A stretch of DNA of 64,000 bases from Chitinivibrionales bacterium (GTDB taxonomy: Bacteria; Fibrobacterota; Chitinivibrionia; Chitinivibrionales; FEN-1185). This document shows positions 30,891-63,771 of the stretch, piece by piece; within the stretch, counting starts at the first letter, position 1, and each line of letters opens with the position of its first letter. The stretch lies in assembly GCA_035516255.1 (NCBI GenBank), contig DATJAL010000031.1:62001-126000 (forward strand), given 5' to 3'. Both the position numbers and the translations under genes were made by a program. The notes beneath the pieces are model-generated. The model did no database searches and was not told the DNA's origin. It saw nothing but the letters and a program-made list of their open reading frames with translations.

Positions 30891-31694
30891 ATGAGCGGTC
30901 AACTTAAGGCTGAGTTGGACAACATTTACACGGTTTTTCATTGTCCATATTATTTGTATCTTGATCCGGTTCAGTATGTCCATCGGTTCGTAGGAAAACA
31001 AAACATCGAAATCGGCGGCCTTCTGTGTTCGTCCCTTTCTTACGGCAGGGTGGAGCAGATTCGAAACAGCATTGAAAAAGTGCTTCGGATCACGGGGACC
31101 GAAATTTATGATTTCTCCACTGCTGTTCCGCTGCGTGAAAAAATGAGACTCCTTTCCGGCATTAAACACAGGTTCAATACCGGAACGGATATCGCGCTGC
31201 TGCTCGAATGCTGCGCTGTAGCGACCGGGCATTACGGATCGCTTGAGGCGTTGTTCGTAAAAGGCCTGAAAAAGTCCGAGAATACAATAAAAGAAGCCCT
31301 GGACAAATTTGTCCTGTCCATGCGTGCCGTTGCCGCCGCAATTCTTAAAAACAGGCCTTCCGGCATGTATTTTTTCTTGCCAAGGCCGGCCGCGGGCAGC
31401 ACCTGCAAGCGGCTGAACATGTTTTTGCGGTGGATGATACGGGAGGATGACGGGATTGACTGCGGGGCATGGAAATCAATTTCTCCTTCGAAGCTCGTGA
31501 TGCCCGTGGACACTCATGTCGCCGCGCTGGCAAAAAGACTGGCACTGACAAAAAGAAAATCGGTTGACTGGCGCATGGCCGAGGAAATCACTGCAACATT
31601 GAAAACCGTGTACCCAAACGACCCGGTGCGCTGCGACTTTTCGCTGTGCAGGGCCGGCATGGTTGATTTCAGAAATCTTTGGAAAGCGGCGTGA
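30891..31694 (+). CDS. DUF2400 (TIGR02757) family protein
   Basis: 267 residues, ATG 30891 with AAGGA 10 bases upstream. The family pattern is distinct: FLPRPAAGSTCKRLNMFLRW in the middle, then DCGAWKSISPSKLVMPVDTHVA, and DPVRCDFSLCRAGM at the end. These proteins have an HhH-glycosylase-like fold; their role is unknown and could be nucleic-acid related. The stop overlaps the ATG of ptsI by one base, so the two are co-translated, and the third gene likewise. Confidence 0.85.
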   Translation: MSGQLKAELDNIYTVFHCPYYLYLDPVQYVHRFVGKQNIEIGGLLCSSLSYGRVEQIRNSIEKVLRITGTEIYDFSTAVPLREKMRLLSGIKHRFNTGTDIALLLECCAVATGHYGSLEALFVKGLKKSENTIKEALDKFVLSMRAVAAAILKNRPSGMYFFLPRPAAGSTCKRLNMFLRWMIREDDGIDCGAWKSISPSKLVMPVDTHVAALAKRLALTKRKSVDWRMAEEITATLKTVYPNDPVRCDFSLCRAGMVDFRNLWKAA

Positions 31695-44336: not shown

Positions 44337-45383
44337 ATGGGTGGAGTGACGGCTCATACGGTTGAGAGAGAACACGCTGCATCGGGGCGCAGTTCCCGGG
44401 CCCGTTTGGCGATTCTCAAGGCGCTTGAAGAGCTCGGCGAATCGGCCGGCGCGTCAAAAATTTCGAGCATGCTCCAGGGGACGGGGATCGACCTCCAGGA
44501 ACGCACCATCCGTTTCCATTTGAGAAAAATGGACCGCGACGGGCTCACCCGGTTCGTGGCGAAGCGCGCGGGCCGGCTGATCACCGAAAACGGCAGGCGT
44601 GAACTGGCCTGCCAGACCGTCATGACCAAGGTCGGGTTCGTGACCTCGAAGATGGACGAATTCGGCTTCCGCATGTCATTTCATCCCGATGCTGCAAGCG
44701 GGACCGTTCCCGCAAACACCGCCTTTATCAATGAAATTGATTTACCCCGCGCCCTTCATCTTATGCAGCCGGTATTCACCTCAGGTCTGAGCATGGGCGA
44801 CCGTATCGCGCTCAGGACCGATGATCCTGCGGTGCCTCGCGGGAAAACCGGAATCATGACGATTTGCAGCGTCATCATAAACGGGGTTTTTCTCAAGGCC
44901 GGCATCCCGGTGGTCTCACGGTTCGGCGGCCTGGTCGAAATGGAACACGGCGCGCCGAAGCGTTTTCTGGAGATCATCGAATACCGGGGCACCTCGGTGG
45001 ATCCGCACAAGCTTTTTATCAAGGCGAACTTCACGACCGTGAACCGCTGCGCCGAGACGGGCCGCGGCGTCATCTGCGTCAGTTTCCGCGAGTTCCCGTC
45101 GGCCGCGATCGACACGGCAAAGAAGCTCGTTGCGAAGTTGCAGGATGTCAACTGCCACGGCGTGCTTGCCGTGGGCGCGCCGAACCGGCCCCTTCTTGAC
45201 GTTCCGGTGGGTGACGGGCGGACCGGCATGATCACCATCGACGGGCTCAACCCGATCGCGGCGTTGCACGAGGCGGGCGTTCCGGTCGAGTTGAGCCCGC
45301 TGTCCGGTCTTGAGGAGATATCAAGTTTTGCTGCATTCAAGGACGTTGCGGCCATGGAACGGCGCAGCGCCTCCATGGAGTGA
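44337..45383 (+). CDS. nrpR: NrpR-type regulator (winged helix plus DUF128 domain)
   Basis: 348 residues. Residues about 20-85 are a winged helix-turn-helix (RLAILKALEELGES ... RTIRFHLRKMDRDG). Residues about 95-335 form one NrpR regulatory domain (DUF128), with VGFVTSKMDEFGF at its start, GRGVICVSFREFPSAA and a C-terminal GLEEISSFAAFKD. In methanogens NrpR represses nif and glnA and is relieved by 2-oxoglutarate. Here it heads a co-directional cluster containing glutamate synthase, an apt place for a nitrogen sensor. The next gene starts 4 bases after its stop. Confidence 0.8.
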   Translation: MGGVTAHTVEREHAASGRSSRARLAILKALEELGESAGASKISSMLQGTGIDLQERTIRFHLRKMDRDGLTRFVAKRAGRLITENGRRELACQTVMTKVGFVTSKMDEFGFRMSFHPDAASGTVPANTAFINEIDLPRALHLMQPVFTSGLSMGDRIALRTDDPAVPRGKTGIMTICSVIINGVFLKAGIPVVSRFGGLVEMEHGAPKRFLEIIEYRGTSVDPHKLFIKANFTTVNRCAETGRGVICVSFREFPSAAIDTAKKLVAKLQDVNCHGVLAVGAPNRPLLDVPVGDGRTGMITIDGLNPIAALHEAGVPVELSPLSGLEEISSFAAFKDVAAMERRSASME

Positions 45384-45386
45384 CGC

Positions 45387-45821
45387 ATGACTGCCGCGAA
45401 TGAAAAATCATTGACGGATAAGAAGCCTTCCTGCATCATCATTTTTCTCTGCAAAAACTGCGTTCCGGCCGGGGGCAAGCTGCCGGTCCAGTGGAATGAG
45501 GAAGGTGTTCATGTGCGTATCAGGGAGATTCCCTGCAGCGGAAAAGTCGACGCGCAATACATGATGCACGCGCTTGAGGGCGATGTCGGCGGGATCTTCG
45601 TGATCACCTGTCCCGTGGGCGAATGCACGCTTTCGCAGGGCAACTACCGGGCCGAGATGCGCGTGAAAACCGTGCAGCGGCTTCTTGCCGAGGCCGGGCT
45701 CGATCCGAAACGGGCCGGCATCGCGCACTGCAAGGCCGGCGTGACGATTGAAGGACTGAAAGGAATCATCGGCGACGCGGTCCGCACCATTGCGGGAACC
45801 GCCGTTGCGGCGCAATCATAA
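45387..45821 (+). CDS. mvhD: MvhD/FrhD-like iron-sulfur electron-transfer subunit, copy 1
   Basis: 144 residues. Cys pairs are C22-K-N-C25, C in IREIPCSGKVD, and the family's C-P-V-G-E-C-T-L-S-Q-G-N-Y block. MvhD hands electrons from hydrogenase or formate modules to HdrA; here it is the first gene after the regulator and no hydrogenase gene is in the window. It is more divergent than the other two copies. ATG start; it begins 3 bases after the NrpR stop and is followed by metF after 13 bases. Confidence 0.75.
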   Translation: MTAANEKSLTDKKPSCIIIFLCKNCVPAGGKLPVQWNEEGVHVRIREIPCSGKVDAQYMMHALEGDVGGIFVITCPVGECTLSQGNYRAEMRVKTVQRLLAEAGLDPKRAGIAHCKAGVTIEGLKGIIGDAVRTIAGTAVAAQS

Positions 45822-45834
45822 GAAAGTTGAAATT

Positions 45835-46746
45835 ATGCAACAAGACAAGACCAACCTGCAGAAACGGATCGAATCGGGAAAAACGCTCGTGACCGCCGAG
45901 ATCGCGCCTCCGCGCTCGACCGACGGGCAGGCAGTGCGCGCCGTTGCGAAACGTTTTTCCGGAAAGGTCCATGCAATAGGCGTGAGCGACAACAAGGACT
46001 CCATCACCATGTCGGCAGTGGCGGCCGCCTCGATTTTGGCAGCGGAAAACGTGGAGCCCATTCTCCACATGGCCACGCGCGACCGCAACCGTGCCGCGCT
46101 CGTTTCCGATTTCCTCGGCGCGTGCGCGCTCGGCGTGCGCAACGTGCTCTGCACCAGCGGCACGCACCAGACCCTGCTGCCGTTCCGGGCGGCCAAGAAC
46201 GTATTTGACATCGATGCCACCGTGCTGATCCAAACGCTGCACGATCTTAAAAAAAACGCAAAAATCGTGGGCGAGAAAAATATCGACGGCGATGTATCGT
46301 ATTGCCTTGGGGCCGTTGTTTCTCCGTATGCGGATCCGATGGATTTGCAGCTTCCGCGCCTGGCCCAGAAGATATTCGTGGGCGCGCAGTTCGTGGTCAC
46401 CCATCCGGTGTTCGACCTGGAACGGTTCAATGCCTGGTGGAAAGAGGTGACGAACCGGGGGCTGCACGAAAAGGCGGCTTTTATCGCGGGAATAAAAATT
46501 TTCACCGACGCTGCAGCGGCAAAGGCGTTTTCGGAAAAGCGCCCCCTGCCCATGGTGCCGGACGCAATGCTCGCACGGCTTGGCTTAAAATCAGGCGCAA
46601 GCAGGGGGGAAGGGATCAAAATCGCGCTCGAAACCATTGAAAAACTTTCTTCGATAAACGGCCTGCGCGGTTTTCAGGTCGAAGTTGACGGCGACGCCGA
46701 CGCGGCGATAGAAGTGCTCGACACCCTGAAATCGAAACTCGGATAA
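45835..46746 (+). CDS. metF: 5,10-methylenetetrahydrofolate reductase, MetF-type
   Basis: 303 residues, from the ATG at 45835 (AAGAAAG upstream). The barrel begins E-I-A-P-P-R-S and has the flavin/folate positions of MetF. The NILCTSGTHQTLLP-like block and HPVFDLERFNAWW are present. It is a short, single-domain enzyme; the zinc/Fe-S MetV domain is encoded separately at 59.5 kb. It catalyses CH2-THF to CH3-THF. With Hdr and MvhD genes nearby it resembles the Moorella MetFV-HdrABC-MvhD type of complex, but with several extra genes between. Confidence 0.9.
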   Translation: MQQDKTNLQKRIESGKTLVTAEIAPPRSTDGQAVRAVAKRFSGKVHAIGVSDNKDSITMSAVAAASILAAENVEPILHMATRDRNRAALVSDFLGACALGVRNVLCTSGTHQTLLPFRAAKNVFDIDATVLIQTLHDLKKNAKIVGEKNIDGDVSYCLGAVVSPYADPMDLQLPRLAQKIFVGAQFVVTHPVFDLERFNAWWKEVTNRGLHEKAAFIAGIKIFTDAAAAKAFSEKRPLPMVPDAMLARLGLKSGASRGEGIKIALETIEKLSSINGLRGFQVEVDGDADAAIEVLDTLKSKLG

Positions 46747-46752
46747 TTGTAA

Positions 46753-48135
46753 ATGTCCGCGAAATACCACGTCCATACGCATCTGACGCCGCCGCGCATC
46801 AGGCCCGAGGGCAAACTCGGCATTGTTGACTGGCGGGAAGACTGCTCGAGTTGCAAGAACTGCGTGAAAAAAGGCTGCGTGTACAACCTGTACCGCGAGG
46901 AATACGACGCCCTGCACCAGGAGCTGGGCTATCTGGACTACATTTACCAATGCAAAGGCTGCCTCACCTGCGTGCAGAACTGCACCAAGAACATCCTCAC
47001 GCGCGTGGTGAACCCCGAATACGAGCGGCTCGGCGACGGCTACTATACCCCCGACATCGTGCTTACCACCTGGTACCAGGCCGAGACCGGCGCGGTGCCC
47101 GTGTCGGGCTGCGGCTACGGCGGCCCGTTTTCGGGCCAGGGGTTCGATTCCATGTGGACCGACATGTCGGAGATCGTGCGGCCCACGCGCGACGGCATTC
47201 ACGGACGCGAATACATCAACACCGGCGTGGATATCGGCCGCAAGCGGCCGCGTCTTTCCTTCGACGGCATGAACCTTGTCGGCGAGGCGCCGCCGCTCAT
47301 CCAGAGCCCGCTGCCGCTCATGTTCGGCGATATTCCGGCGCGGTGGCGCCATGATGCAGTCATTGAGTCGATTCTTTCCGCGGCGGGAGACCTCGGGCTC
47401 CTTGCCGTGCTTCCCCTCGATCTGGCCGAGAAACATGCCGGCAGGATGAACAACATCGTGCCGCTGATTGACAAACAGGAACCTTCCGCGGCAGGCGCGG
47501 CCATGGTGATCGTCCCGGACTCCGAAAAGGTTTCCGATCTCATCACGGCCCTTAAAAAGGAAAATCCCAAGCGGATCATTGCGGTGAGAATGAATGCCGG
47601 ACCGGACACCGCGGCGCGCGTGCTGGACCTTGCCCGCCGGGGCGTGGAAGCGGTGAACCTCGTGTTCGACAAGCACGGCAGGGAAACAGGCGCGGCCAAG
47701 CCCCGTCATGTGCGCGACGCCGTGCGCGAGACGCACAAGGCGCTTGTCAAGGAAGCGATCCGCGACGAGATCACGCTCATCGCCTCGGGCGGCATCGCGC
47801 TTCCCGAGCACATGGCAAAGGCGATCATCTGCGGCGCCGACCTTGTGACGGTCGATATCCCGCTCATTCTCGCCATGGACTGCAGGCTGTGCGGCGAATG
47901 CGAAAGGGGCGAGCCGTGCCAGGTTGACCTGGCTGGCATCGACGTGAAATACGGCGCGGGCAGGCTCAAGAACCTCATGGGCTCGTGGCACAGCCAGCTG
48001 CTCGAGATGCTGGGCGCCATGGGGATACGCGAGGCGAGGCGCCTGCGCGGCGAGACTGGCCGCTGTATGTTCTTCGAGGATTTGGAGGCGGCGGCGTTCG
48101 GAAGAATCTTTGGTAAAAGGAAGGATGCCTGTTGA
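46753..48135 (+). CDS. GltB-related ferredoxin-like protein, reduced paralogue of glutamate synthase
   Basis: 460 residues. Two [4Fe-4S]-type clusters in the N-terminus: C31-xx-C34-xx-C37-xxxx-C42 and C67-xx-C70-xx-C73-xxx-C77. A middle part with poor similarity is followed by a half-barrel related to the GltB FMN domain (ITLIASGGIALPEHMAKAI ... CRLCGECERGEPC). It lacks the GGMSFG region and other FMN contacts of the next gene. I read it as a diverged paralogue that may have kept electron transfer but lost synthase activity. It starts 6 bases after metF and is followed by a palindromic repeat. Confidence 0.65.
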   Translation: MSAKYHVHTHLTPPRIRPEGKLGIVDWREDCSSCKNCVKKGCVYNLYREEYDALHQELGYLDYIYQCKGCLTCVQNCTKNILTRVVNPEYERLGDGYYTPDIVLTTWYQAETGAVPVSGCGYGGPFSGQGFDSMWTDMSEIVRPTRDGIHGREYINTGVDIGRKRPRLSFDGMNLVGEAPPLIQSPLPLMFGDIPARWRHDAVIESILSAAGDLGLLAVLPLDLAEKHAGRMNNIVPLIDKQEPSAAGAAMVIVPDSEKVSDLITALKKENPKRIIAVRMNAGPDTAARVLDLARRGVEAVNLVFDKHGRETGAAKPRHVRDAVRETHKALVKEAIRDEITLIASGGIALPEHMAKAIICGADLVTVDIPLILAMDCRLCGECERGEPCQVDLAGIDVKYGAGRLKNLMGSWHSQLLEMLGAMGIREARRLRGETGRCMFFEDLEAAAFGRIFGKRKDAC

Positions 48136-48160
48136 TTCGGTTGGGTTTGAAAATTAGACG

Positions 48161-48259
48161 CACCGCAAAGGCGCAAAGTACGCAAAGAAGAAAATGACCG
48201 ATGAGAAAAAAATGAAATATAATTCTGTTTTACTTTGCGATCTTTGTGTCTTTGCGGTG
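48161..48259. repeat. CACCGCAAAG-type palindromic repeat, copy 2
   Basis: CACCGCAAAGGCGCAAAG ... CTTTGTGTCTTTGCGGTG, 99 bases, in the gap between the GltB-related and GltB2-type genes. Each arm carries two GCAAAG units. Confidence 0.9.
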
Positions 48260-48300
48260 AATTTTTCATATCAAAAATAGAAATTAACCAGTAGCTTTTT

Positions 48301-49866
48301 ATGGCCGTCGCAACCGAAAAAATCAATCGTCCCCAGAGCGCCGAGGAGTTCTCCTCCAAGCCGGAATTCGCCGACATCCCGCGCCAGGTGCGCATCGCGC
48401 CGCCGCGGTACCGCAACGAGATGGGGAAATACAGCATCCACCGCGCGTCAACCTGCGTCAACTGCGGGAAATGCGTCGAGATCTGCCAGTACGGCGTGCA
48501 CCAGCGGCCCGAGGGCTACCGCCAGGTGATCCGGCCGCTCGATTACCGGTGCATCGGCCCGGACTGCGAAAAGGCCGGACGGTTCTGCATCACCAATTGC
48601 CCCAAGGGCGCGCTCTCACTCGACGAAAACCCGGTGTTCAAGACGCTCGGCGATTACCGCTGGACACCCGATCTCCTGGCGAGCAACTGGCACATGGCCG
48701 AGACCGGGAAACAGCCGCCTTCGCATCTGGAAAGCCAGATAGGGAATTCGGGCGGCGGGTTCGACCGGCTGCGGTTCGTGTTCCCGGAAAAACCGCCCAA
48801 GGACCTGCGGCGCGAGGACATTTCGACAAAGCTTCTTCTTAACAAAAGGAAGAACGATCCGCGGCCGAAGATCACCATCGACGTTCCGTGGTACGGCGGC
48901 GGCATGTCGTTCGGCTCCACCAATATCCGCGCGCAGCTCGGAAAGGTGCGCGCCGCAAAGGCGTGGAACACCTTCAGCTGCACGGGCGAGGGCGGCTACC
49001 CGGAGCGTTTTATTCCCTATAAAGATTACATGATCACCCAGGTCGCAACCGGGCTTTTCGGCGTGCGCGAGGAGACCATCCAGCGCGCGCGCATCGTGGA
49101 ATTCAAGTACGCGCAGGGCGCCAAACCCGGCCTGGGCGGGCACCTTCTTGGCGACAAGAACACGCCGGCCGTGGCCGCCATGCGCGAGGCCGTGGTGGGC
49201 ACGAGCCTGTTCTCGCCGTTCCCGTTCCACAGCGTGTATTCCATCGAGGACCACAAGAAGCACCTCGACTGGATCGCGCATGTCAACCGCACCGCGCTGC
49301 TCTCGGCAAAGGTGTCCACGCCCAACGACGTGGAGATGGTGGCCGTGGGCTCGTACTGCGCGGGCGCGCACATCGTGCACATGGACGGCAGCTACGGCGG
49401 CACCGGCGCCGCGCCGAACATCGCCAAGAAGAACATCGCCATGCCCATCGAATACGCGATAAGCAACGTGCACCAGTTTCTGACGGCCGAGGGCGTGCGC
49501 GACGAGGTCACGCTCATCGTGTCGGGCGGCATCCGCAATCCATGGGACATCGCCAAGGCCATCGCCATGGGCGCCGACGGCATCGTGATCGGCACCGCAG
49601 AGCTTGTCGCGCTCGGCTGCATCCGCTGCGGCTGCTGCGAGAGCGGACGCGGGTGTGCGCGCGGCATCTGCACCACCGACGCCGAGCTGCACCAGCTTTT
49701 CACGGTTGACTGGGCAACCCAGCGCCTCGTCAACATGCACCATGCATTCCGGGAATGCCTTGTTGATATTTTATACCGGCTTGGCCTTGATTCGGTGACT
49801 GCTTTACGGGGAAGAACGGATTTACTTATGCATTTGGATTATGAAAGCGACCGAGGGAAGAGATGA
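48301..49866 (+). CDS. Archaeal-type glutamate synthase synthase subunit (GltB2-like)
   Basis: 521 residues. N-terminal Cys clusters C52-xx-C55-xx-C58-xxx-C62 and C84 ... C89 ... C96 ... C100. The FMN/2-oxoglutarate barrel starts VPWYGGGMSFGS (about 195-206) and has GGTGAAPNIAKKNIAMP and VSGGIRNPWDIAKAIAMGAD. The C-terminal C-I-R-C-G-C-C ... C cluster is also present. It makes glutamate from 2-oxoglutarate and ammonia. Its ATGA stop/start overlap with the next gene shows coupling to the amidotransferase subunit. Confidence 0.85.
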   Translation: MAVATEKINRPQSAEEFSSKPEFADIPRQVRIAPPRYRNEMGKYSIHRASTCVNCGKCVEICQYGVHQRPEGYRQVIRPLDYRCIGPDCEKAGRFCITNCPKGALSLDENPVFKTLGDYRWTPDLLASNWHMAETGKQPPSHLESQIGNSGGGFDRLRFVFPEKPPKDLRREDISTKLLLNKRKNDPRPKITIDVPWYGGGMSFGSTNIRAQLGKVRAAKAWNTFSCTGEGGYPERFIPYKDYMITQVATGLFGVREETIQRARIVEFKYAQGAKPGLGGHLLGDKNTPAVAAMREAVVGTSLFSPFPFHSVYSIEDHKKHLDWIAHVNRTALLSAKVSTPNDVEMVAVGSYCAGAHIVHMDGSYGGTGAAPNIAKKNIAMPIEYAISNVHQFLTAEGVRDEVTLIVSGGIRNPWDIAKAIAMGADGIVIGTAELVALGCIRCGCCESGRGCARGICTTDAELHQLFTVDWATQRLVNMHHAFRECLVDILYRLGLDSVTALRGRTDLLMHLDYESDRGKR

Positions 49867-52484
49867 CATCCGACCGCGCAATCGCCCTCATTCGAAGCCG
49901 GGACGGACTCCGTCCCCCAGGCGAATGGCTCGGTAAGCCGCAGGAAGCCGAAGGCGGCTGCGGGGTCACCGGATTCGCCTGCACCGTGCCGGTGCGCGGA
50001 AAGCACATCTACGAGCCGAGCATCCAGATGCGCAACAGGGGCAACGGCAAGGGCGGCGGCATAGCGGCGTGCGGCTTGGTGCCCGAGGACTTCGGCGTTT
50101 CCCGCAGCGTGCTTGAGCAGGACTACTGCCTGCAGGTCGCGCTCCTCGACCCCGGCGCACGGGGAGAGGTTGAAAAGGAATTCATCGAGCCGTTCTTCAC
50201 CATCGACCAGGGCGGCATAATCCCCACCGTCAAGGACTTCCGCGACGTGCAGCTGCTCGAGGTGAAGCCCCCCGACGTGGCGCGGTACTTCGTGAGGCCC
50301 AAGCAGGACGTCCTCGCCGCGTTTGCAAAAGAGAAGGACCTGTTGAATCTTGACAGGCGCGAAATCGAGGACGAGTTCGTGTTCCAGAACTCCTTCAGGC
50401 TCAACGCGAAATTCTACGCCTCGCTCGGCGAGAAGCGCGCGTTCGTGCTGTCGCACGCCCGCAACCTCATCATCCTCAAGGTGGTGGGATACGCCGAGGC
50501 CGTGGTGCAGTACTACTGCATGGAGAACTCGCGGGCGCACGTGTGGATCGCGCACCAGCGCTATCCCACGCGCGGCCGCGTGTGGCACCCGGGCGGCTGC
50601 CACCCCTTCATCGGCATGAACGAGGCGCTCGTGCACAACGGCGACTTCGCCAACTACGTATCGGTGTGCGAATACCTGGCGCAGCGCAACCTTTTCCCGC
50701 AGTTCCTCACCGACACCGAGGCGTCGATCATGCTGTTCGACCTCATGAACCGCGCCTACAAATACCCGGTGGAATACATCATCGAATCGCTGGCGCCCAC
50801 CACGGAGCTCGACTTTGACCGGCTGCCCGCCGAAAAGCAGCGCATCTACCGCGAGATCCAGGCGGCGCAGATCCATTCGTCGCCCGACGGCCCGTGGTTT
50901 TTCATCATCGCGCGCAACCTTGACAAAGCGGGATTCCAGCTCCTCGGCATCACCGACACCGCCATGCTGCGGCCGCAGGTGTTCGCGCTGCAGGAGGGCG
51001 AGGTGTCCATCGGCCTCATCTGCTCCGAGAAGCAGGCCATCGACGCCACGCTGGCGAGCCTGTCGCGCGAGGACGCGCGGTTCTCGCCGATCGCAGACAT
51101 GTACTGGAACGCACGCGGCGGCAGCGCCAACGACGGCGGCGCGTTCCTCATTAATGTTGCGCCCGACGGCGCCGGAAGCGGCGCGCCGCATTACAAGCTG
51201 CAGGTGACCAACAAGTTCGGCCAGCCCGTGAACACACGGCCGGGCCAGAAACATTGCGATTTTTCAACGCCGGTCTCGGTGCCTTCCGATACAACGCAGG
51301 ACAAGAGAGCGATCGAAGAGGCGCTTGACAAAAACGACCCGCGGCCGATCTATGAGCATCTGAGGAAAAACATCCATGCCGTGGATTACAACCGGCTCCG
51401 CTGGTGCGTGAGCGAGATCGCGTCACAAACCGCGATAAAAGCGCCGATGCTTGCCATCGAGGCGCTCACGCTGTGTATCGACCGGAGGTATCCCACGGGC
51501 GCCAAGAAACGCAGCTCCGTGATCGCGGCGCTGCGCCAGGGGCTCGACGCGATATTCTCCGCGCAGCCGCTGTTCACGCAGGAGGGCGAGGCCGTGTGCC
51601 GGCGCATCAATCTTGACACAAGAGCGGCGCTGCGCTCACCGACGGGCCCGGAAAAAACACTGCTCATTGACGCGCGCGGGTTCGCGGCCGAGGGCGCCGG
51701 CTGCGACGCGTCCCTTGCCGTTGACGCATACAAGCTCGGCTGGCGCCGCATCGTGCATTACAACTCGCGCGGCACGCGCTTCCACGCCGCTGGGTTCGGC
51801 CCGGCCACCGACGGCCTGCGCGTCGACTGTTACGACAATCCCGGAGATTACCTCGCCTCGGGCGTGGACGGCCTCGAGGCGTACGTGCACGGAAACGCGC
51901 AGGACCAGTTGTGCCAGATCGCCAAGCGCGGAAAGGTGGTGATCTACGGCGACGTGGGCCAGACGTTTCTCTACGGCGCAAAGGGCGGCGACATCTTCGT
52001 GATGGGCAACGCGGCCGGAAGGCCCATGATCAACGCGGTGGGAAAACCAAAAGTGGTGATCAACGGGACCGCGCTGGACTTTCTCGCCGAATCGTTCATG
52101 GCCGGCGACGCGCTCAACGGCGGAGGGTTCGCGGTTGTAAACGGCCTCAAGGTGGAGGACAACGGCGACATCGTCCCGCTCGACCTGCCGTATCCGGGCA
52201 GCAACCTGCTGTCGCTGGCGTCGGGCGGCGCGATTTACGTGCGCGACCCGAAGCGCACGCTCGTGGCGGAGCAGCTCAACGGCGGCATGTACGGCCGGTT
52301 CACGGAGGCCGACTGGAAGCTCATCCTGCCGTACCTTGAGGAGAACGAGCGGCTGTTCGATATCCGTGTCGGACGCGACCTGCTTACGGTTGACGGCGTA
52401 CTGAAAAAGCCGTCGCAGGTGTACCGCAAGGTGATGCCGAAGGGCAAGTCGGCGGAAGAAGAGACGGAAGAAGTCGGGGAATAA
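49863..52484 (+). CDS. Fused glutamine amidotransferase (class II) and GXGXG glutamate synthase subunit
   Basis: 873 residues. The GATase nucleophile would be Cys33 in E-G-G-C33-G-V-T-G-F; 32 residues precede it, like the propeptides of other glutamate synthases. The amidotransferase half runs to about residue 430 (HQRYPTRGR ... CHPFIGMNEALVHNGDF). A helical middle is followed by the GXGXG beta-helix (about 640-790, GKVVIYGDVGQTF ... GGDIFVMGNAAGR). It works with the preceding subunit. No GltD-type NADPH subunit is present; the Hdr/Nuo proteins next door are the natural candidates for electron supply. Confidence 0.85.
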   Translation: MTSDRAIALIRSRDGLRPPGEWLGKPQEAEGGCGVTGFACTVPVRGKHIYEPSIQMRNRGNGKGGGIAACGLVPEDFGVSRSVLEQDYCLQVALLDPGARGEVEKEFIEPFFTIDQGGIIPTVKDFRDVQLLEVKPPDVARYFVRPKQDVLAAFAKEKDLLNLDRREIEDEFVFQNSFRLNAKFYASLGEKRAFVLSHARNLIILKVVGYAEAVVQYYCMENSRAHVWIAHQRYPTRGRVWHPGGCHPFIGMNEALVHNGDFANYVSVCEYLAQRNLFPQFLTDTEASIMLFDLMNRAYKYPVEYIIESLAPTTELDFDRLPAEKQRIYREIQAAQIHSSPDGPWFFIIARNLDKAGFQLLGITDTAMLRPQVFALQEGEVSIGLICSEKQAIDATLASLSREDARFSPIADMYWNARGGSANDGGAFLINVAPDGAGSGAPHYKLQVTNKFGQPVNTRPGQKHCDFSTPVSVPSDTTQDKRAIEEALDKNDPRPIYEHLRKNIHAVDYNRLRWCVSEIASQTAIKAPMLAIEALTLCIDRRYPTGAKKRSSVIAALRQGLDAIFSAQPLFTQEGEAVCRRINLDTRAALRSPTGPEKTLLIDARGFAAEGAGCDASLAVDAYKLGWRRIVHYNSRGTRFHAAGFGPATDGLRVDCYDNPGDYLASGVDGLEAYVHGNAQDQLCQIAKRGKVVIYGDVGQTFLYGAKGGDIFVMGNAAGRPMINAVGKPKVVINGTALDFLAESFMAGDALNGGGFAVVNGLKVEDNGDIVPLDLPYPGSNLLSLASGGAIYVRDPKRTLVAEQLNGGMYGRFTEADWKLILPYLEENERLFDIRVGRDLLTVDGVLKKPSQVYRKVMPKGKSAEEETEEVGE

Positions 52485-52657: not shown

Positions 52658-53569
52658 ATGACCGTTGATACCATAAAAGAAACACAACCCGCGGCACAGG
52701 TCAAGAAGGCCCCGGTCGGCGCCGTGCTTGTGTGCGGCGGCGGGATCGCGGGCATACAGGCGTCGCTCGACCTCGCGTCATCCGGGTTCTACGTGTACCT
52801 CGTGGAGGAGAGCCCCACCATCGGCGGCAACATGGCGCGGCTCGACAAAACGTTCCCCACGGGCGACTGCGCCACGTGCATCATCTCTCCCAAGGTGGTG
52901 GCGTGCATGCGCGACCTGAACATCGAAGTGATCACCATGGCGCAGGTGAAGAATCTTTCCGGCGAAGCCGGCAACTTCACCGCGACGCTGTCGGTGCGGC
53001 CGCGCTACGTCAACGAGGACAAGTGCACCGGCTGCGGCGACTGCGTGGAGCGCTGCCCGGTGCGCAACGTACCGCAGGAGGTGTCGGCCGTGGTCGTGGA
53101 GGAGGCGCTTGACAAGAAAGACCAGGACCTGCTCGACGGCCTCGTGGAAAAGCACAAGGGCGACCCGGGCGCGCTTATGCCGGTGTTGGAGGCGATCAAC
53201 AGGATCCGCGGCTACCTGCCGCGGCCGCTGCTCGAACATGCCGCGGCGCGGCTCGAAATTCCGATCGCGCAGGTGCTCACGGTGGCGAGTTTTTACGACA
53301 AGATGGGGTTTGATGCGCCGGGAAGGCACGTGATACAGGTGTGCAACGGTACGAGCTGCCATTCTCGGCATTCACAGAAGCTGCTCGCGGCGCTGGAGAA
53401 AAGACTCGGCGTTTCCGAAGGCGGCACCGATAAACAAGGCCGGTTTACCTTAAAGACCGTGCGCTGTCTCGGGCTGTGCGCGCTGTCGCCGTCCATGCGC
53501 GTCGACGACGTGAGCTTCGGCAGGGTTGACATAAGCGATCTTGATAAAATATTGGGACAATTCAAATGA
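52658..53569 (+). CDS. HdrA N-terminal module fused to NuoE
   Basis: 303 residues. Residues 20-140 are the start of HdrA: FAD loop G27-G-G-I-A-G, the IGGNMARLDKTFPTGDCATC stretch and [4Fe-4S] site C123-xx-C126-xx-C129-xxx-C133. The HdrA part then stops. Residues about 145-303 are a NuoE-type (24-kDa, thioredoxin-like) 2Fe-2S protein, with C229-xxxx-C234 and C270-xxx-C274. The stop overlaps nuoF (ATGA). The remainder of HdrA is found fused to NuoG in the gene after next, so this is one half of a split HdrA. Confidence 0.85.
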   Translation: MTVDTIKETQPAAQVKKAPVGAVLVCGGGIAGIQASLDLASSGFYVYLVEESPTIGGNMARLDKTFPTGDCATCIISPKVVACMRDLNIEVITMAQVKNLSGEAGNFTATLSVRPRYVNEDKCTGCGDCVERCPVRNVPQEVSAVVVEEALDKKDQDLLDGLVEKHKGDPGALMPVLEAINRIRGYLPRPLLEHAAARLEIPIAQVLTVASFYDKMGFDAPGRHVIQVCNGTSCHSRHSQKLLAALEKRLGVSEGGTDKQGRFTLKTVRCLGLCALSPSMRVDDVSFGRVDISDLDKILGQFK

Positions 53570-55365
53570 GCGATACGGTAAAGACATCGGCCGACCTCGA
53601 CCGCCTTGCAAAGGCGGGGAGCGCCACGCTGTATCCCGGGGGGCTTAAGATCCTCGTGGGGTCCGCAACGTGCGGCCTTGCCATGGGCGCGCAAAAGGTG
53701 GAAGACGCGGCGGTCGCGACCGTGAAGAAATTCAAGGCCGACGCGGTTGTCAAGAAAACCGGTTGCATCGGGTTCTGCAGCCGCGAACCCCTGCTCGACA
53801 TGGTGCTGCCCAACGGTCCGCGCATCAGCTTCGGCAACATGACGCCGGAAAAGACCCGCGAGGTGCTTTCGGCGTACTTTACAAACGGTGCCGTCAGCCC
53901 GGAGGCGGCGCTCGGCAGGTTTACCGGTGAGGATCATGTGCTCACCGGCGAGTCGCATGCTTACGGAACAATTCCGGCGGCGCAGACCATACCCGAATGG
54001 TCGCAGCTCGATTTCATGCGCGGACAGAAGAGAATCATCATGCGCAGCTGCGGATCCATCGATCCGATGTCCATCGAAGAGGCAATAGCGCGCGGGGCGT
54101 ACCGGGGTGCGCTTAAGGCGCTCACCACGATGAAACCCGAACAGGTGATCGAGGAAATTCTAGCGTCCGGCCTTCGCGGCCGCGGCGGCGCGTATTTCCC
54201 CACCGGACAAAAATGGAAGTTCGCGCGCAACGCAAAGGGCGACGTGAAATACATAGTGTGCAATGCGGACGAGGGCGCTCCCGGTTCGTCAATGGACCGC
54301 ACCGTGATCGAGGGCGACCCGCACGCCGTCATCGAGGGAATGATCGTGGGCTCGTACGCCATCGGCGCGCGCCAGGGTTTCGTGTACGTGCGCAGCGAAT
54401 ACCCGCTTGCCATAGCGATACTCGAACACGCCATTGACGAGGCGGAAAAGCTCGGCCTGCTCGGCAAAAACATTTTCGGCAGCGGATGGTCTTTCTCGCT
54501 TTCGGTGCGCCGCGGCGCCGGCGCGTACGTGTGCGGCGAGGAGACCGGCCTCATCGAATCCATCGAAGGGCATGCGGGCGAGCCGCGCGCAAGGCCGCCG
54601 TTCCCGGTGACCGCAGGGCTGTGGGGAAAACCCACGGTGGTGAACAACGTCAAGACCTGGGCGAGCGTGGCGCCGATCCTCACCCGCGGCGCGCAGTGGT
54701 ATGCGTCAATGGGCACCAAGAACACCACGGGCACCACGATTTATTCGCTCGAGGGGTCGGTGAACAACGCCGGGCTCGTGGAAGTGCCGTTCGGCATCAC
54801 GCTGCGCGAAATGATTTACGGAATGGGGGGCGGCGTGCGGGACGGCAAGGCGTGCAAGGCCGTGCAGATCGGCGGGCCTTCGGTCGGGTGCATCCCGCCG
54901 TCGATGCTCGACCTGGCGATCGACTCGGTTGACATTCCGGGAAAATCGGCCAACATGGGCACGGGCGGCATCATCGTGATGGACCAGGACAGCTGCGTGG
55001 TCGACATGACGCGCTTTCTGCTCGGGTTTTTCGTGGATGAGTCGTGCGGCAGGTGCACGCCGTGCCGCGAGGGCACCAAACAGATGTATGGCATGCTCGA
55101 CGACATTGCCAGTGGCAGGGCAAACGCGGACACTATTGCAAGCCTCGAGCGGTTGAGCAGGGCCATGAACGCCACCGCGGTGTGCGGGCTCGGCAACACG
55201 GCCTCCGGGCCGGTGGCAAACGCGCTGACGCATTTCAGGGACGAGATCGACATGCACATCGCGGGAAGAAAATGCCCTGCTGGCGTGTGTTCGATGAAAG
55301 TAAAAAAAGATTGCCACAGAGGCACAGAGAACGCTGAGAAAACGGAGTTGGAAGTTGGAGGTTGA
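53566..55365 (+). CDS. nuoF: NuoF/HndC-type NADH-binding flavoprotein
   Basis: 599 residues. The N-terminal thioredoxin-like 2Fe-2S domain has C36, C67 and C71. The FMN/NAD core has GLRGRGGAYFPTGQKW and the glycine-rich NADEGAPGSSMDRT. [4Fe-4S] ligands are C494, C497, C500 (E-S-C-G-R-C-T-P-C-R-E-G) and a Cys near 540. It oxidises NADH. Unlike HndC/HydB relatives it has no C-terminal ferredoxin domain: after CPAGVC the frame runs into a palindromic repeat and stops. Start overlaps the HdrA/NuoE stop. Confidence 0.9.
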   Translation: MSDTVKTSADLDRLAKAGSATLYPGGLKILVGSATCGLAMGAQKVEDAAVATVKKFKADAVVKKTGCIGFCSREPLLDMVLPNGPRISFGNMTPEKTREVLSAYFTNGAVSPEAALGRFTGEDHVLTGESHAYGTIPAAQTIPEWSQLDFMRGQKRIIMRSCGSIDPMSIEEAIARGAYRGALKALTTMKPEQVIEEILASGLRGRGGAYFPTGQKWKFARNAKGDVKYIVCNADEGAPGSSMDRTVIEGDPHAVIEGMIVGSYAIGARQGFVYVRSEYPLAIAILEHAIDEAEKLGLLGKNIFGSGWSFSLSVRRGAGAYVCGEETGLIESIEGHAGEPRARPPFPVTAGLWGKPTVVNNVKTWASVAPILTRGAQWYASMGTKNTTGTTIYSLEGSVNNAGLVEVPFGITLREMIYGMGGGVRDGKACKAVQIGGPSVGCIPPSMLDLAIDSVDIPGKSANMGTGGIIVMDQDSCVVDMTRFLLGFFVDESCGRCTPCREGTKQMYGMLDDIASGRANADTIASLERLSRAMNATAVCGLGNTASGPVANALTHFRDEIDMHIAGRKCPAGVCSMKVKKDCHRGTENAEKTELEVGG

Positions 55366-58964: not shown

Positions 58965-58987
58965 ATTTTTAAATGGGATCAAGGGAT

Positions 58988-59470
58988 ATGAACCATCAAC
59001 CCGTCATCCTTGCCTTCTGCTGCCATTACTGCGCCTATGCGGCCGCGGACATGGCGGGCTCGATGCGGCTGCAGTATCCGGCCAACGTGCGGGTGCTGCG
59101 GTTTCCCTGCACGGGAAAGATCGAGGAGAACTACCTGCTCGCCGCGTTCGAAAAGGGCGTTGACGGCGTGTTGGTCGCGGGATGCCTCGAGGGCGGGTGC
59201 CACTTTTTAGAGGGCAACCTGCGCGCGAAGAAAAGAGTCGCGCGCGTCAAGGAGATACTTGCCGAGGCCGGCATCGAGCCGCAGCGGCTCGAGATGTTCA
59301 ACCTGTCGTCGGCCGAGGGACCGCGGTTCGCCGAGATCGCTAAAGAAATGTACAACCGCGTGGCGCCGCTCGGACCGAGCCCGCTGCGCAAAAGCAGGGA
59401 AGCCGTGGAACAGGGCATTTCGGACATGGCGCTTGAGGCCGAATTGGCCATTGAAGGAGGGAAAAAATGA
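58988..59470 (+). CDS. mvhD: MvhD-like iron-sulfur subunit, copy 2
   Basis: 160 residues from ATG 58988 (AAGGGA closely upstream); ATG 58973 is an alternative adding 5 residues. The family signature is FCCHYCAYAAADMAG, then GCLEGGCHFLEGNLRAKKRV with its Cys pair, and LEMFNLSSAEGPRFAEI. It passes electrons between a donor module and HdrA. It is much closer to the third copy (63.9 kb) than to the first. Its stop overlaps the metV start (ATGA). Confidence 0.85.
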   Translation: MNHQPVILAFCCHYCAYAAADMAGSMRLQYPANVRVLRFPCTGKIEENYLLAAFEKGVDGVLVAGCLEGGCHFLEGNLRAKKRVARVKEILAEAGIEPQRLEMFNLSSAEGPRFAEIAKEMYNRVAPLGPSPLRKSREAVEQGISDMALEAELAIEGGKK

Positions 59471-60159
59471 TCGTTGCAGACCGCAAGAAGATCCCCGAGA
59501 TCCGCGATATGGTTAAAAACCACGACCGCGTGCTTGTTGTCGGATGCGGAACGTGCGTCACGGTGTGTTTGGCGGGCGGCGAGCGCGAGACCGGCATCAT
59601 CGGCTCCGCGCTGCGCATGGCGCTTAAACTTTCCGGACGCGAAAAAACCCTGGTGCACGAGGTGACCATCGAGCGCCAGTGCGAGGACGCGTTCATCGAC
59701 GTGCTCGCGCAGCGCGTGAACGAATACGACGCGATCCTTTCGCTCGGGTGCGGCGCGGGCGTGCAGGCGCTTGCCGAGCGCTTTCCCGGCAAGGCCGTAT
59801 ATCCTGGACTCAACACGCAGTTCATGGGAATTCTCGAATCGCAAGGCGTGTGGGCCGAAAAATGCGCGGGCTGCGGCAACTGCCGGCTCGGATCGTATTT
59901 CGGCATCTGCCCCATCACGCGGTGCTCCAAGCGCCAGATGAGCGGCCCGTGCGGAGGGTCGCGCAACGGCAAATGCGAAGTGAGCGAAAACACCGATTGC
60001 GCGTGGCAGCTGATTTACGACCGGGCGAAATCGCTCGGTAAAACCGATATGCTCGCCTCGATCATTGGGCCGCAGGACTGGTCGACGTCCAACGACGGCG
60101 GCGTACGTGTGGTGGTGCGCGAGGACCAGTGCATCGCTGGCATGGGGCCAAAGGCATGA
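59467..60159 (+). CDS. metV: MetV-type methylene-THF reductase C-terminal domain protein
   Basis: 230 residues. The signature is the C-terminal MTHFR-C block: C-A-G-C-G-N-C-R-L-G ... C-P-I-T-R-C-S-K, then S-G-P-C-G-G-S-R-N-G-K-C-E-V and D-C-A-W-Q-L-I-Y. These cysteines bind Fe-S or zinc in MetV. An N-terminal half (about 1-110) has its own GCGTCVTVC and GCGAGVQAL segments. It should partner MetF, encoded 13 kb earlier. Overlap with the MvhD-like gene shows translational coupling. Confidence 0.9.
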   Translation: MIVADRKKIPEIRDMVKNHDRVLVVGCGTCVTVCLAGGERETGIIGSALRMALKLSGREKTLVHEVTIERQCEDAFIDVLAQRVNEYDAILSLGCGAGVQALAERFPGKAVYPGLNTQFMGILESQGVWAEKCAGCGNCRLGSYFGICPITRCSKRQMSGPCGGSRNGKCEVSENTDCAWQLIYDRAKSLGKTDMLASIIGPQDWSTSNDGGVRVVVREDQCIAGMGPKA

Positions 60160-60163
60160 AAAA

Positions 60164-60269
60164 TCACCGCAAAGGCGCAAAGATCGCAAAGGAAAGATGA
60201 TTCGCAAACAAAAAAATTGATTTCTTATTAATTCTATTTATCTTTGCGGCCTTTGCGTCTTTGCGGTGA
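60164..60269. repeat. CACCGCAAAG-type palindromic repeat, copy 6
   Basis: TCACCGCAAAGGCGCAAAG ... CTTTGCGTCTTTGCGGTGA, 106 bases, nearly perfect arms, in the gap between metV and the HdrC-like gene. Confidence 0.9.
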
Positions 60270-60307
60270 AATCTGTTATAAAACAAAGGAATAATCGAGA
60301 GGTACCG

Positions 60308-60769
60308 ATGAGTAAAACGAACGAGGATACTATTATCGTCGAAGACCTTGACCCGACCTTCCGCGAGGAAGTGGCACTTTTGCCGGGCGGTGCGAACATC
60401 ACCAGGTGCTTCGCCTGCGGCACGTGCGCGGCGGGGTGCCCGGTCACCAACATCGACGACGGGTACAACTGCCGCACTATTATCCGTAAAGTGCTGTTCG
60501 GCATGCGCGAGGAGGTGCTGCGCTCGCCCGAGCTCTGGCTGTGCATGATGTGCTACCGGTGCTACGCGCGGTGCCCGCAGCAGGTGAATTTCACCGACAT
60601 CATGCGCGCGCTGCGCCACCTTGCGGTGCGCGACGGGTATGCGCCGGCCGAAATGCTTGCCAAAGAGGAAGAATTCGATAAAAAGGCTCAGGCCCTGCGG
60701 CGCGACCTGGTGAAGGGTGCGGCGGCGGGGAAGAAGACGGTTGCGAAGAAACATGCCAAGAAAAAATGA
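60308..60769 (+). CDS. hdrC: HdrC-like [4Fe-4S] protein
   Basis: 153 residues from ATG 60308 (GAGAGG 5 bases upstream). Two clusters: C34-xx-C37-xx-C40-xxx-C44 and C79-xx-C82-xx-C85-xxx-C89, the HdrC arrangement. The C-terminus is a short basic tail ([12 protein letters not shown]). HdrC normally bridges HdrA and HdrB; no HdrB with its CCG motifs is in the window. The ATG of hdrA overlaps its stop. Confidence 0.85.
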   Translation: MSKTNEDTIIVEDLDPTFREEVALLPGGANITRCFACGTCAAGCPVTNIDDGYNCRTIIRKVLFGMREEVLRSPELWLCMMCYRCYARCPQQVNFTDIMRALRHLAVRDGYAPAEMLAKEEEFDKKAQALRRDLVKGAAAGKKTVAKKHAKKK

Positions 60770-63700
60770 CAACGCATAAAAAAGCGATGGTGGTCGGCGG
60801 CGGCGTGGCAGGCATTCAGGCCGCGCTCGACCTTGCCGACATGGGCGTGGAGACGTTCCTGGTGGAGAGCGGGCCGTCCATCGGCGGACGCATGGCCCAG
60901 CTTGACAAAACGTTCCCCACCAACGACTGCGCCATGTGCATCCTGTCGCCAAAGCTCGTGCAGGCGGGAGGCCATCCGTACCTCCGCATCATCACCAACG
61001 CGGAGGTGACCGGCATTGCGGGACAGGCGCCCGACCTTCAGGTCACGGTGCTCAAGCACCCGCGGTATGTTGACGAAAGCAAATGCACCGGGTGCGGTAT
61101 TTGCACATCGAAATGCCCCGCCAAGATGCCGGATCCGTACAATAAGGGATTGTCTCAAACCAAGGCGATCCGCATCCCGTTTCCGCAGGCGGTGCCGGCG
61201 ATCGCGGTGATCGACCCCTCAAAATGCCTGTATCTTAACAAAGGAACATGCAGGCTGTGCGAAAAGTCGTGCGGCACCAATGCAATCAATTTCAAGCAGA
61301 AAGAAGAGGTGCTCACGCTCGAGGTAGGCTCCGTTGTGCTCGCCTGCGGCACCGCCGAATTCGATGCGCGGCTCAAGGGCGAATACGGGTACGGCATTTT
61401 CCCCAACGTAGTCACGAGCATCGAATACGAGCGGCTCCTGAGCGCATCCGGCCCCACCTCCGGCCATATTGTGCGGCCTTCCGACAAAAAGGAACCCAAG
61501 AAAATCGCCATTCTCCAATGCGTCGGGTCGCGCGACCTTTCCGCGGCGGGCGAACACTGCTCGGCCATCTGCTGCATGCAGGCGGCCAAGGACGCGATCA
61601 TCACCCAGGAACATTTACCGAACGCGAAAAGCACCATTTTCTACATGGACATCCGCGCCTACGGCAAGGGGTTCGACCGTTTCATCGACAAGGCAAGGGA
61701 CCGGCACGATACGTCATTTGTCAATGGCCGCATTTCGTCGGTGGAGAGCGACCCGGTCACCAACGACCTGAAAATCGGCTATATCACCCAGGACGGCACG
61801 GTGAAGAGCGCGACGTTCGACCTGCTCGTGCTGTCGGTGGGCATACGGCCGTCGCCGCTTTCGATGGCTACCGCCCGCCGCCTCGACGTGACGCTTGACG
61901 GATCGGGATTCGTGGCCACCGGCGACATGACGCCCGTGTCCACGGTAAAGCAGGGCGTTTTCGTGTGCGGCAGCATGAGCGGCCCCAAGGACATCCCGGA
62001 ATCGGTTATGGAGGCCAGCGGCGCCGCGAGCGCGGCGGCGACGGTGCTCGGCTGCCTGCCGGTGAAAAAGATAAAGGTTGAGATGCCGGCCCAGAAGGAC
62101 CTTCGCGGCGAGCCGCCGCGGATCGGCGTGTACGTCTGTCGCTGCGGCATCAACATCGCCTCGGTGGTGGACGTTCCCGCTGTGGTGAAATACGCCGCAA
62201 CATTGCCGGGCGTCAAGTTCGCGGGCGAGCTCATGTTCTCCTGCGCGCAGGACTCGCAGAAGGCCATCCGCGCGGCCATCGAACAGCACAGGCTCAACCG
62301 GCTCGTGGTGGCGGCGTGCACGCCGCGCACGCACGAGCCGCTGTTCCAGAAAACGCTCGAAAGCGCGGGCATCAACCCGTACCTGTTCGAGTTCGCGAAC
62401 ATCCGCGAGCACTGCTCGTGGGTGCACCAGAAGGAGCCGCAAAAGGCAACCGAAAAAGCGTGCGGACTGGTGCGCGCGGCGATCGCAAAAGTCAAGCTGG
62501 CTTCGCCGCTTTACAAAAAGTCAATGGGCGTGAACCGGGGCGCGCTCGTGATCGGCGGCGGGCTTGCCGGCCTCACGGCCGCGCTCGACCTCGCTGACCA
62601 GGGATACGCGGTCTCGCTTGTCGAGAAGACCGGGGAGCTGGGCGGCAATTTGCTGCATGTGCATTCCACGCTCTCAGGGGAAAAAACCGGCACGATGCTG
62701 GAAGGACTTGTTGACAAAGTAAAGAAGCATCCGAATATCAAGACGCATTTGAGGTCAAATATCAAAAACGTCGCGGGATATGTTGGTAATTTCAAGACTG
62801 AACTTGAGGACGGCCATGTTTTCGAGCATGGCGCCGTTATCGTCGCGGCCGGCGCAAATCAATATGAACCGGTTGAATATTCCTATGGAAAAGATTCCCG
62901 GATCATTACACAGCGCCAGTTGGAAGACCTGTTGCATTCCGACAATCTGCAATCAGTCATCAGCAATCAGCAATCAATTGTTATGATCCAGTGCGTCGGC
63001 TCACGCGAAGGCAAGCGCGACTTCTGCAGCAGGGTGTGCTGTTCGAACGCGATCAAGAACGCGATCGCGATCAAGGAAAAAAACCCGAAGATTCCGGTGT
63101 ACATTCTGTTCCGCGACATCCGCAGCTACGGGTTGCGGGAGAAATACTACCGGATCGCGCGGGAAAAGGGCGTGATATTTGTCAGGTTTGACAAGGACGA
63201 AAAACCGGAAGTCTCGGTAAAGGGCGGCCATCTTGTCGTAAAAGTAAAGGATGAGGTCCTTAAAAAGACTCTTGCCATTCGCCCCGGGCTCCTGGTGCTT
63301 TCCACGGGTATCGCGGCCAATCCGGACAATAAAGCTTTGTCCCAGTTCCTCAAGGTGCCGCTCGACCAGGACGGTTTCTTCCTCGAGGCGCACATGAAGC
63401 TGCGTCCGGTTGATTTCGCCACCGACGGCGTGTTCGTGGCGGGCCTGGCGCATTATCCCAAGGACATCAGCGAGACCATCGCGCAGGCGCGCGCAGCGGC
63501 CGGAAGGGCCGCGACCGTTTTGTCAAAGGATTCTTTGGAATCCGAGGGCAAGATTTCGAGCGTGCGCCAGGAACTGTGCTCGGGCTGCGGTGCGTGCGCG
63601 GCCGTGTGCGCGTACAGCGCGATCGAACTCGACCCGGTAAAGCGCATCGCGGTTGTCAATGAGGCGCTGTGCAAGGGCTGCGGCGCCTGCGCCGCCTCCT

Positions 63701-63771
63701 GCAGGGCGGGCGCGGTGGATTTGAACGGATTCAAAAATGAACAGATATTGAGCGTGCTGGCAACGATATGA
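60766..63771 (+). CDS. hdrA: Complete double-module HdrA
   Basis: 1001 residues. Module 1 has the FAD loop G11-G-G-V-A-G16 and [4Fe-4S] sites C107-xx-C110-xx-C113-xxx-C117 and C154, C162, C165, C169. [18 protein letters not shown] segment near 450 links to module 2, which starts near residue 590 ([20 protein letters not shown]). Ferredoxin sites end the protein (about 938-985, [11 protein letters not shown] ... [11 protein letters not shown]). HdrA is the flavin-bifurcating core of heterodisulfide-reductase-like complexes. It provides the reference for the split copy 8 kb upstream. Confidence 0.92.

Follow-up and report, generated by a model that had tools for sequence, protein, structure and literature searches.

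A glutamate synthase cluster from a Chitinivibrionales bacterium in which an HdrA/NuoEFG module probably takes the place of GltD

The window analysed here is a stretch of 64,000 nucleotides (positions 62,001 to 126,000 of contig DATJAL010000031.1, C31) from the genome of a Chitinivibrionales bacterium (GCA_035516255.1; 4.28 Mb in 61 contigs, 96.6% complete), whose nearest named relatives are Chitinivibrionales/Chitinispirillaceae metagenome-assembled genomes (MAGs) of the Fibrobacterota. It contains a same-strand cluster with the gene order NrpR-FlpD1-MetF-GltX-GltS-GAT/GXGXG-(HdrA-NuoE)-NuoF-(NuoG-HdrA)-FlpD2-MetV-HdrC-HdrA2, in which GltX, GltS and a class-II glutamine amidotransferase (GAT) make up an archaeal-type glutamate synthase core at 46753-52484. 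Gene content, domain identity, conserved active-site and cysteine residues and a conserved neighbourhood can all be observed directly in the cluster and its relatives. From these comparisons, the cluster probably encodes a glutamate synthase that works anaerobically on NAD(P)H, with an HdrA/NuoEFG module standing in for GltD and electrons delivered through HdrA and FlpD. The original prediction, made from sequence alone, was of an Hdr-fed glutamate synthase with no GltD partner; the first part is well supported by comparison (the Hdr linkage, GltD within HdrA in sister loci, FlpD, and the lack of HdrB), but the genome does have a gltD.

That the Hdr/Nuo genes supply the synthase with NAD(P)H electrons is supported most strongly by a slot within HdrA that GltD and NuoEFG share. 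As noted originally, HdrA/Nuo genes are found next to the core, and here the FAD domain of HdrA is split. Alignment to 8rvu indicates that P0004 (52658-53569, + strand) contains the beginning of this domain, as far as the first inserted [4Fe-4S] motif (residues 16-136, HdrA 147-267) and then runs into NuoE (residues 162-302). An NuoF-like FMN/NADH subunit follows (53566-55365, +; PF01512, PF10589; 407.7 bits to PRK13596, over the cut-off), and HdrA resumes at 264 in P0006 (55507-58827, +) after the N-terminal [2Fe-2S]/[4Fe-4S] domains of NuoG (PF13510). Residues 204-444 of P0006 correspond to HdrA 264-501, and a second HdrA-like half with a C-terminal ferredoxin completes the chain (528-760, HdrA 2-235; 901-1080, HdrA 468-650).

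A single scan of a genome collection, using peptide patterns built on five close sequences, gave 126 loci related to the core, of which the 80 best were kept, so that distant forms of the core will have been missed; the loci are mostly MAGs, and the exact gene ends of L037, L039 and L040 are unsure because frames are broken there. In six loci (L037, L038, L084, L096, L108 and L109) the HdrA that follows the core holds an inserted GltD domain. This HdrA-GltD forms a single long chain, of about 1490-1645 aa in the complete cases; it matches P0004 to residue ~135, continues with a complete GltD (PF14691 and Pyr_redox_2), and then matches P0006 from ~240. The inserts share 27-34% identity with the GltD of the window's genome. 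The slot holds NuoE/NuoF(/NuoG-N) in the window, G001, G030, L034, L035, L036 and L033/G039, the last two having identical gene coordinates, being apparently one genome, and not being treated as independent. GltD and NuoE/NuoF/NuoG-N thus occupy the same slot of HdrA. The loci with GltD in the slot do not form a single clade on the core tree (2 changes; approximately unbiased test, p=8e-5, using a quick tree and groups named after the tree had been seen). Because relatives carry the missing GltD inside the same hybrid, the core and the HdrA/Nuo hybrid very probably work together.

The three open reading frames of the core (46753-48135, 48301-49866 and 49863-52484, all +) are real, and domain matches bear out the prediction of a synthase and an amidotransferase/GXGXG subunit. 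The GltX-GltS-GAT trio is found again in most of the 80 contigs, from bacteria as well as archaea, and is therefore more than chance. Its relatives span Thermodesulfobacteriota, Fibrobacterota, Chloroflexota, Bacillota, Planctomycetota, Verrucomicrobiota, Ignavibacteriota, Bacteroidota, methanogens and ANME-1 (anaerobic methanotrophic archaea), among others. The two synthase-related genes differ. GltS (521 aa) looks like an active, catalytic FMN subunit (278.6 bits to PF01645) and has a pair of N-terminal [4Fe-4S] sites as well as a cluster motif at its C-terminus, but GltX (460 aa) is a degenerate paralogue that matches only the last half of this domain (58 bits), having lost the substrate/FMN half while keeping eight invariant cysteines for two N-terminal [4Fe-4S] clusters. 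The predicted structure of GltX (pLDDT, the predicted local distance difference test score, 77.9) has an FMN-barrel fold; since Foldseek returns only generic FMN-barrel matches (best TM score about 0.4), the model indicates fold family rather than function.

In GltS, residues 199-512 align to the FMN/2-oxoglutarate region of the Azospirillum (2vdc) and Synechocystis (1ofd) enzymes and retain the Lys/Arg/Ser positions; the one notable change at the 2-oxoglutarate site, Gln978 of 1ofd to His, is also present in the stand-alone archaeal-type triads of relatives. Among 64 relatives the motifs GGGMS, CTGEGGYP, EFKYAQGAKPGLGGHLLG, SPFPFHSVYS and DG.YGGTGAAP and the cluster motif CESGRGC are nearly invariant. 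The amidotransferase is fused to GXGXG (873 aa; PF13522, PF01493; no match in the PDB), unlike the triads in L015/L016/L031; its catalytic nucleophile Cys33 is kept in 78 of the 78 rows spanning that position, and Arg233, Asn259, Gly260, Asp261 and Asp284 in 80 of 80. A partial tandem duplication of the GltS end and the GAT-GXGXG start is seen in G030 (L138:5927-6540). As in other archaeal-type split synthases, the synthase of the window is on its own chain with an N-terminal ferredoxin domain, apart from GATase/GXGXG. Together with GltS motifs and GATase residues, two further observations argue that the core fits a true glutamate synthase, which would make two glutamates from glutamine and 2-oxoglutarate: in 7 of the 20 core-holding genomes searched, the core contains the only glutamate synthase domains found to score above 60 bits, and its neighbours in relatives include GlnA, GSIII, Amt, PII, CarAB and PurF. 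The same residues, neighbours and genomes make it very doubtful that the core is a glutamate-synthase-like enzyme aminating another 2-oxo acid or an amine (compare N-methylglutamate synthase), although its family is only distantly related to characterised GltS, the 873-aa protein is without a structural match, and the choice of substrate is not readable from sequence.

The claim that no GltD partner is present holds for the cluster, which has no GltD-like gene and so is not of the GltBD type, but fails for the genome: a complete gltBD lies on the same contig, ~31-37 kb downstream (L009:3213-9184), where gltB (1515 aa; 1771 bits to PRK11750) and gltD (474 aa; 633 bits to TIGR01317) are adjacent and in that order. 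This rules out the absence of gltD from the genome. An NfnAB-like pair and amtB sit between the cluster and gltBD. Feeding of the core in trans by the free-standing GltD or by the NfnB-like protein is suggested by the presence of both within 40 kb on one contig, but gltD directly follows a full-length gltB of its own, and such a supply would leave the conserved FlpD/MetV/MetF/Hdr linkage unexplained; we regard it as highly improbable.

The upstream neighbours of the core can be counted in the 53 of 80 loci that have at least 5 kb of 5' sequence, and all 53 have a redox module next to GltX. This is FlpD-MetV-MetF in 23 loci (type A), a 616-aa FAD_binding_4/Fer4 protein resembling GlcD-GlcF in 17 (type B), FlpD-MetF with Hdr genes downstream in 8 (type C; one more FlpD-MetF locus is on a contig that ends too soon), and FlpD alone in 4 (type F). 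GltD occupies the place of the input module in none of the 53, and L100 has a gltD-like gene ~6 kb upstream of the core, before a type B module. Outside type B, wherever the upstream sequence is long enough, FlpD immediately precedes the core or the MetV/MetF genes that belong to it, and the four FlpD cysteines are conserved in 48 of 49 rows, the exception being a row in the wrong frame. FlpD is the usual electron partner of HdrA. Twelve of the 80 loci, as well as G001 and G030, have Hdr genes downstream of the core. Input types cluster on the core tree, requiring 5 changes compared with 29 in shuffles.

These modules bear on whether the core might be an ordinary ferredoxin-dependent archaeal-type glutamate synthase, with the Hdr/Nuo operon merely co-regulated by nitrogen. 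Both GltS and GltX have N-terminal ferredoxin domains, and the GltS motif AKPG[LI]GGHL is identical to that of stand-alone archaeal-type triads. However, every locus with enough sequence has a dedicated redox module beside the core, and the HdrA beside it can carry a GltD insert; we therefore consider this explanation unlikely.

Several other features of these loci were observed. The type B protein is found immediately before the core in 18 loci (for example, L091:4951-6801), in hosts that include Syntrophus, Smithella, Syntrophomonas, Dehalococcoidia and Methanocellales, and a type B core is possibly a hydroxyacid-driven glutamate synthase. An 862-aa protein with the N-terminal domain of pyruvate phosphate dikinase lies near the core at L089:4619-7207 and in 11 other loci, mostly of type B. 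Type A loci (L042-L111; for example, L049:4318-12607) have FlpD-MetV-MetF before the core, and in sulfate reducers this core is possibly a methyl-tetrahydrofolate (methyl-THF)-linked glutamate synthase. In Desulfobacula, an HdrA-GltD gene is located near a type A core in the opposite orientation (L101:17444-18676, minus strand).

An alternative is that the Hdr, Nuo, FlpD and MetFV genes encode a Wood-Ljungdahl methylene-THF reductase complex of the Moorella/Sporomusa type, the synthase genes being mere neighbours with a separate donor. All of metV, metF, flpD, hdr and nuo are present, CdhC is encoded in the genome, and the MetV of the cluster (59467-60159, +; 117 bits to PF12225) is the only one that a search of the genome recovers. 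Against this stands the MetF homologue (45790-46746, +; 73 bits to PF02219), whose folate site is degenerate: Glu28 is kept, but Asp120 is Thr and Gln183 is His (E. coli numbering), so that the folate site expected of a MetVF enzyme is incomplete. Asp120 has been described as invariant and catalytically essential in methylene-THF reductase (PMC9900621), and the E. coli Asp120Asn enzyme keeps 0.3% of kcat (PMC11094777). All resolved type C loci, G001, G030 and G039 included, have Thr, Tyr or Phe at this position (Lys, as aligned, in L039), while Glu28, Asp120 and Gln183 are all retained in the 24 of 24 type A loci, which have no linked Hdr. The folate-site residues rule out the cluster MetF as a working methylene-THF reductase, and a canonical MetF (318 bits) is encoded elsewhere in the genome. 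Given the loss of Asp120 and this separate enzyme, the cluster MetF probably serves as an adapter, with Hdr/Nuo as the point where electrons would enter. In addition, metF and metV flank the synthase genes in every type C locus showing both ends, and the HdrA of sister loci carries GltD. On balance a methylene-THF reductase complex seems improbable here.

The HdrB CCG domain (PF02754) has no match in the whole genome, under conditions in which 12 of 14 control genomes were positive, and is likewise not found in G001, G002, G030 or the genome of L038. Consequently, heterodisulfide is not the acceptor in the classical way, and the Hdr of the cluster is no classical heterodisulfide reductase. Bridging by FlpD and MetF has a precedent in Sporomusa ovata, where MvhD binds HdrA, HdrB and MetF in pulldowns (PMC9430772).

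Taken together, these comparisons favour a pathway in which NADH would reduce the FMN of NuoF, and electrons would then pass to the Fe-S clusters of NuoE and NuoG-N that are built into the split HdrA, and from these to the HdrA FAD. The FAD would in turn reduce the [2Fe-2S] center of FlpD and the Fe-S of MetV, with MetF serving as a non-catalytic adapter, and the ferredoxin domains of GltX and GltS would relay electrons to the GltS FMN. There, 2-iminoglutarate, formed from 2-oxoglutarate and ammonia that the amidotransferase-GXGXG subunit would release from glutamine, would be reduced. We infer the formation of a complex, each of these transfers, and NADH as the donor. A further, tentative possibility, which we think rather doubtful, is that the enzyme bifurcates electrons: exergonic reduction of 2-iminoglutarate by NADH would drive reduction of ferredoxin at HdrA, nitrogen assimilation would conserve energy, and GltD and NuoEFG would be interchangeable NAD(P)H inputs of one slot. 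The glutamate couple (2-iminoglutarate reduction) lies at about -0.13 V. As the heterodisulfide couple has a similar potential (-140 mV; PMC9304861), ferredoxin reduction by HdrA is thermodynamically conceivable.

Several points weigh against an Hdr-fed, NAD(P)H-driven synthase. FlpD, HdrA and Nuo are promiscuous modules that also work with other enzymes; a 173-bp gap separates the GltS core from HdrA-NuoE; and the ferredoxin domains of GltS and GltX could accept electrons straight from ferredoxin. Near its NADH site, NuoF has Ala in the window and G001 (NADEGAPG), where others have Glu (Geobacter) or Asp (G030/G039). HdrB and HdrC share the operon in Geobacter-type loci, and a disulfide acceptor is possible there. 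The N-terminal thioredoxin-like domain of the window NuoF has only three cysteines, and its C-terminal ferredoxin domain is absent, as in G001, so that neither is of the Bfu type, whose BfuB (NuoF) carries that domain in a conserved BfuBC core; the NuoF of G039 is Bfu-like, with NADEGDPG and a C-terminal ferredoxin domain, and that of G030 has NADEGDPG on a contig that ends ahead of the C-terminus. NADH use and bifurcation may thus differ between lineages.

Parts of this system resemble known ones. Like GltBD, the core has class-II GATase, FMN synthase and GXGXG domains, and glutamine/2-oxoglutarate chemistry is expected of it; it differs in having synthase and GATase-GXGXG on separate chains, an extra GltX, and no GltD subunit in the cluster, and in sister loci GltD is located inside HdrA. 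The electron donors of characterised glutamate synthases are NADH, NADPH or ferredoxin, and F420 has been proposed for methanogens (PMC3448663). The FGltS(I)/(II) of methanogens and ANME likewise combine an archaeal-type synthase with an alternative electron-input subunit, as inferred from gene context (PMC3448663, PMC9012536), but there the input is FrhB/FpoF-like and F420-linked rather than FlpD with HdrA/Nuo. The sister loci recall HdrL, an HdrA-GltD fusion with MvhD in Desulfobacterium autotrophicum (PMC2702500), and the type III HdrA of ANME-1/Bathyarchaeota (PMC12054007), in which HdrA with a GltD/NADH-binding domain lies beside MvhD/FlpD and is predicted to use NADH. However, those genes were associated with dsrABC, with mvhADG or with no evident partner, rather than with a glutamate synthase core, and the window itself has NuoE/F/G at the slot. 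The MetVF-HdrCBA-MvhD of Sporomusa and Moorella shares metV, metF, mvhD, hdrA and hdrC with the cluster (PMC9430772), which differs in its degenerate MetF folate site, lack of HdrB and interleaved glutamate synthase genes. In the Bam class-II benzoyl-CoA reductase, HdrA is joined to the NuoEFG-like BfuABC (PMC9304861), but the window has no tungsten reductase and its NuoF lacks the C-terminal ferredoxin domain that G039 has.

While HdrA-GltD, FGltS and HdrA-NuoEFG modules were known before, the proposed HdrA/FlpD-linked glutamate synthase and the GltD/NuoEFG swap appear to be new; a search that covered literature outside subscription found neither a link of Hdr or FlpD to glutamate synthase nor a description of the swap. 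If the proposal is correct, a widespread family of anaerobe glutamate synthases would have exchangeable inputs (FlpD-MetVF, GlcD/F-like, HdrA-GltD and HdrA-NuoEFG), and nitrogen assimilation would be linked to the Hdr electron network. A candidate substrate would also emerge for HdrA-GltD fusions, which in ANME-1 have been called obscure in function, and an energy-conserving glutamate synthase would become directly testable.

The cluster starts at ~44337, with NrpR, FlpD and the MetF homologue ahead of the frames seen originally. NrpR (44337-45383, +; HTH_12 and NRD1_2; 249 bits to PF01995, and PF08461), a nitrogen regulator that adjoins the core in L033/G039 as well, ends 3 bp before FlpD1, an MvhD-like [2Fe-2S] carrier (45387-45821, +; 80 bits to PF02662). 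Genes from NrpR through GltX are separated by a few bases or overlap, and 165 bp lie ahead of GltS. The only NrpR operator (GGAA-N6-TTCC) in the window, at 41164, is not above chance and is distant from the operon, and promoter and terminator scans of the cluster gave results near chance. Downstream are FlpD2/MvhD (58973-59470, +; 165 bits to PF02662), an HdrC-like dicluster protein (60266-60769, +; 95 bits to TIGR03290) and HdrA2 (60766-63771, +; 1004 bits to NF040770). HdrA2 is probably the start of another Hdr unit, with FlpD3 and AsrA/AsrB-like genes beyond the window: 3' of HdrA2, L008:3876-7140 encodes FlpD3, a Fer4 protein, an AsrA-like Fer4_22 protein and an AsrB-like FAD/NAD protein, which suggests that this unit is also NADH-linked. 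Elsewhere in the window, a PtsI-like gene (31679-33415) is followed by one for a sigma-54 activator fused to a low-molecular-weight phosphotyrosine phosphatase domain (33415-35193).

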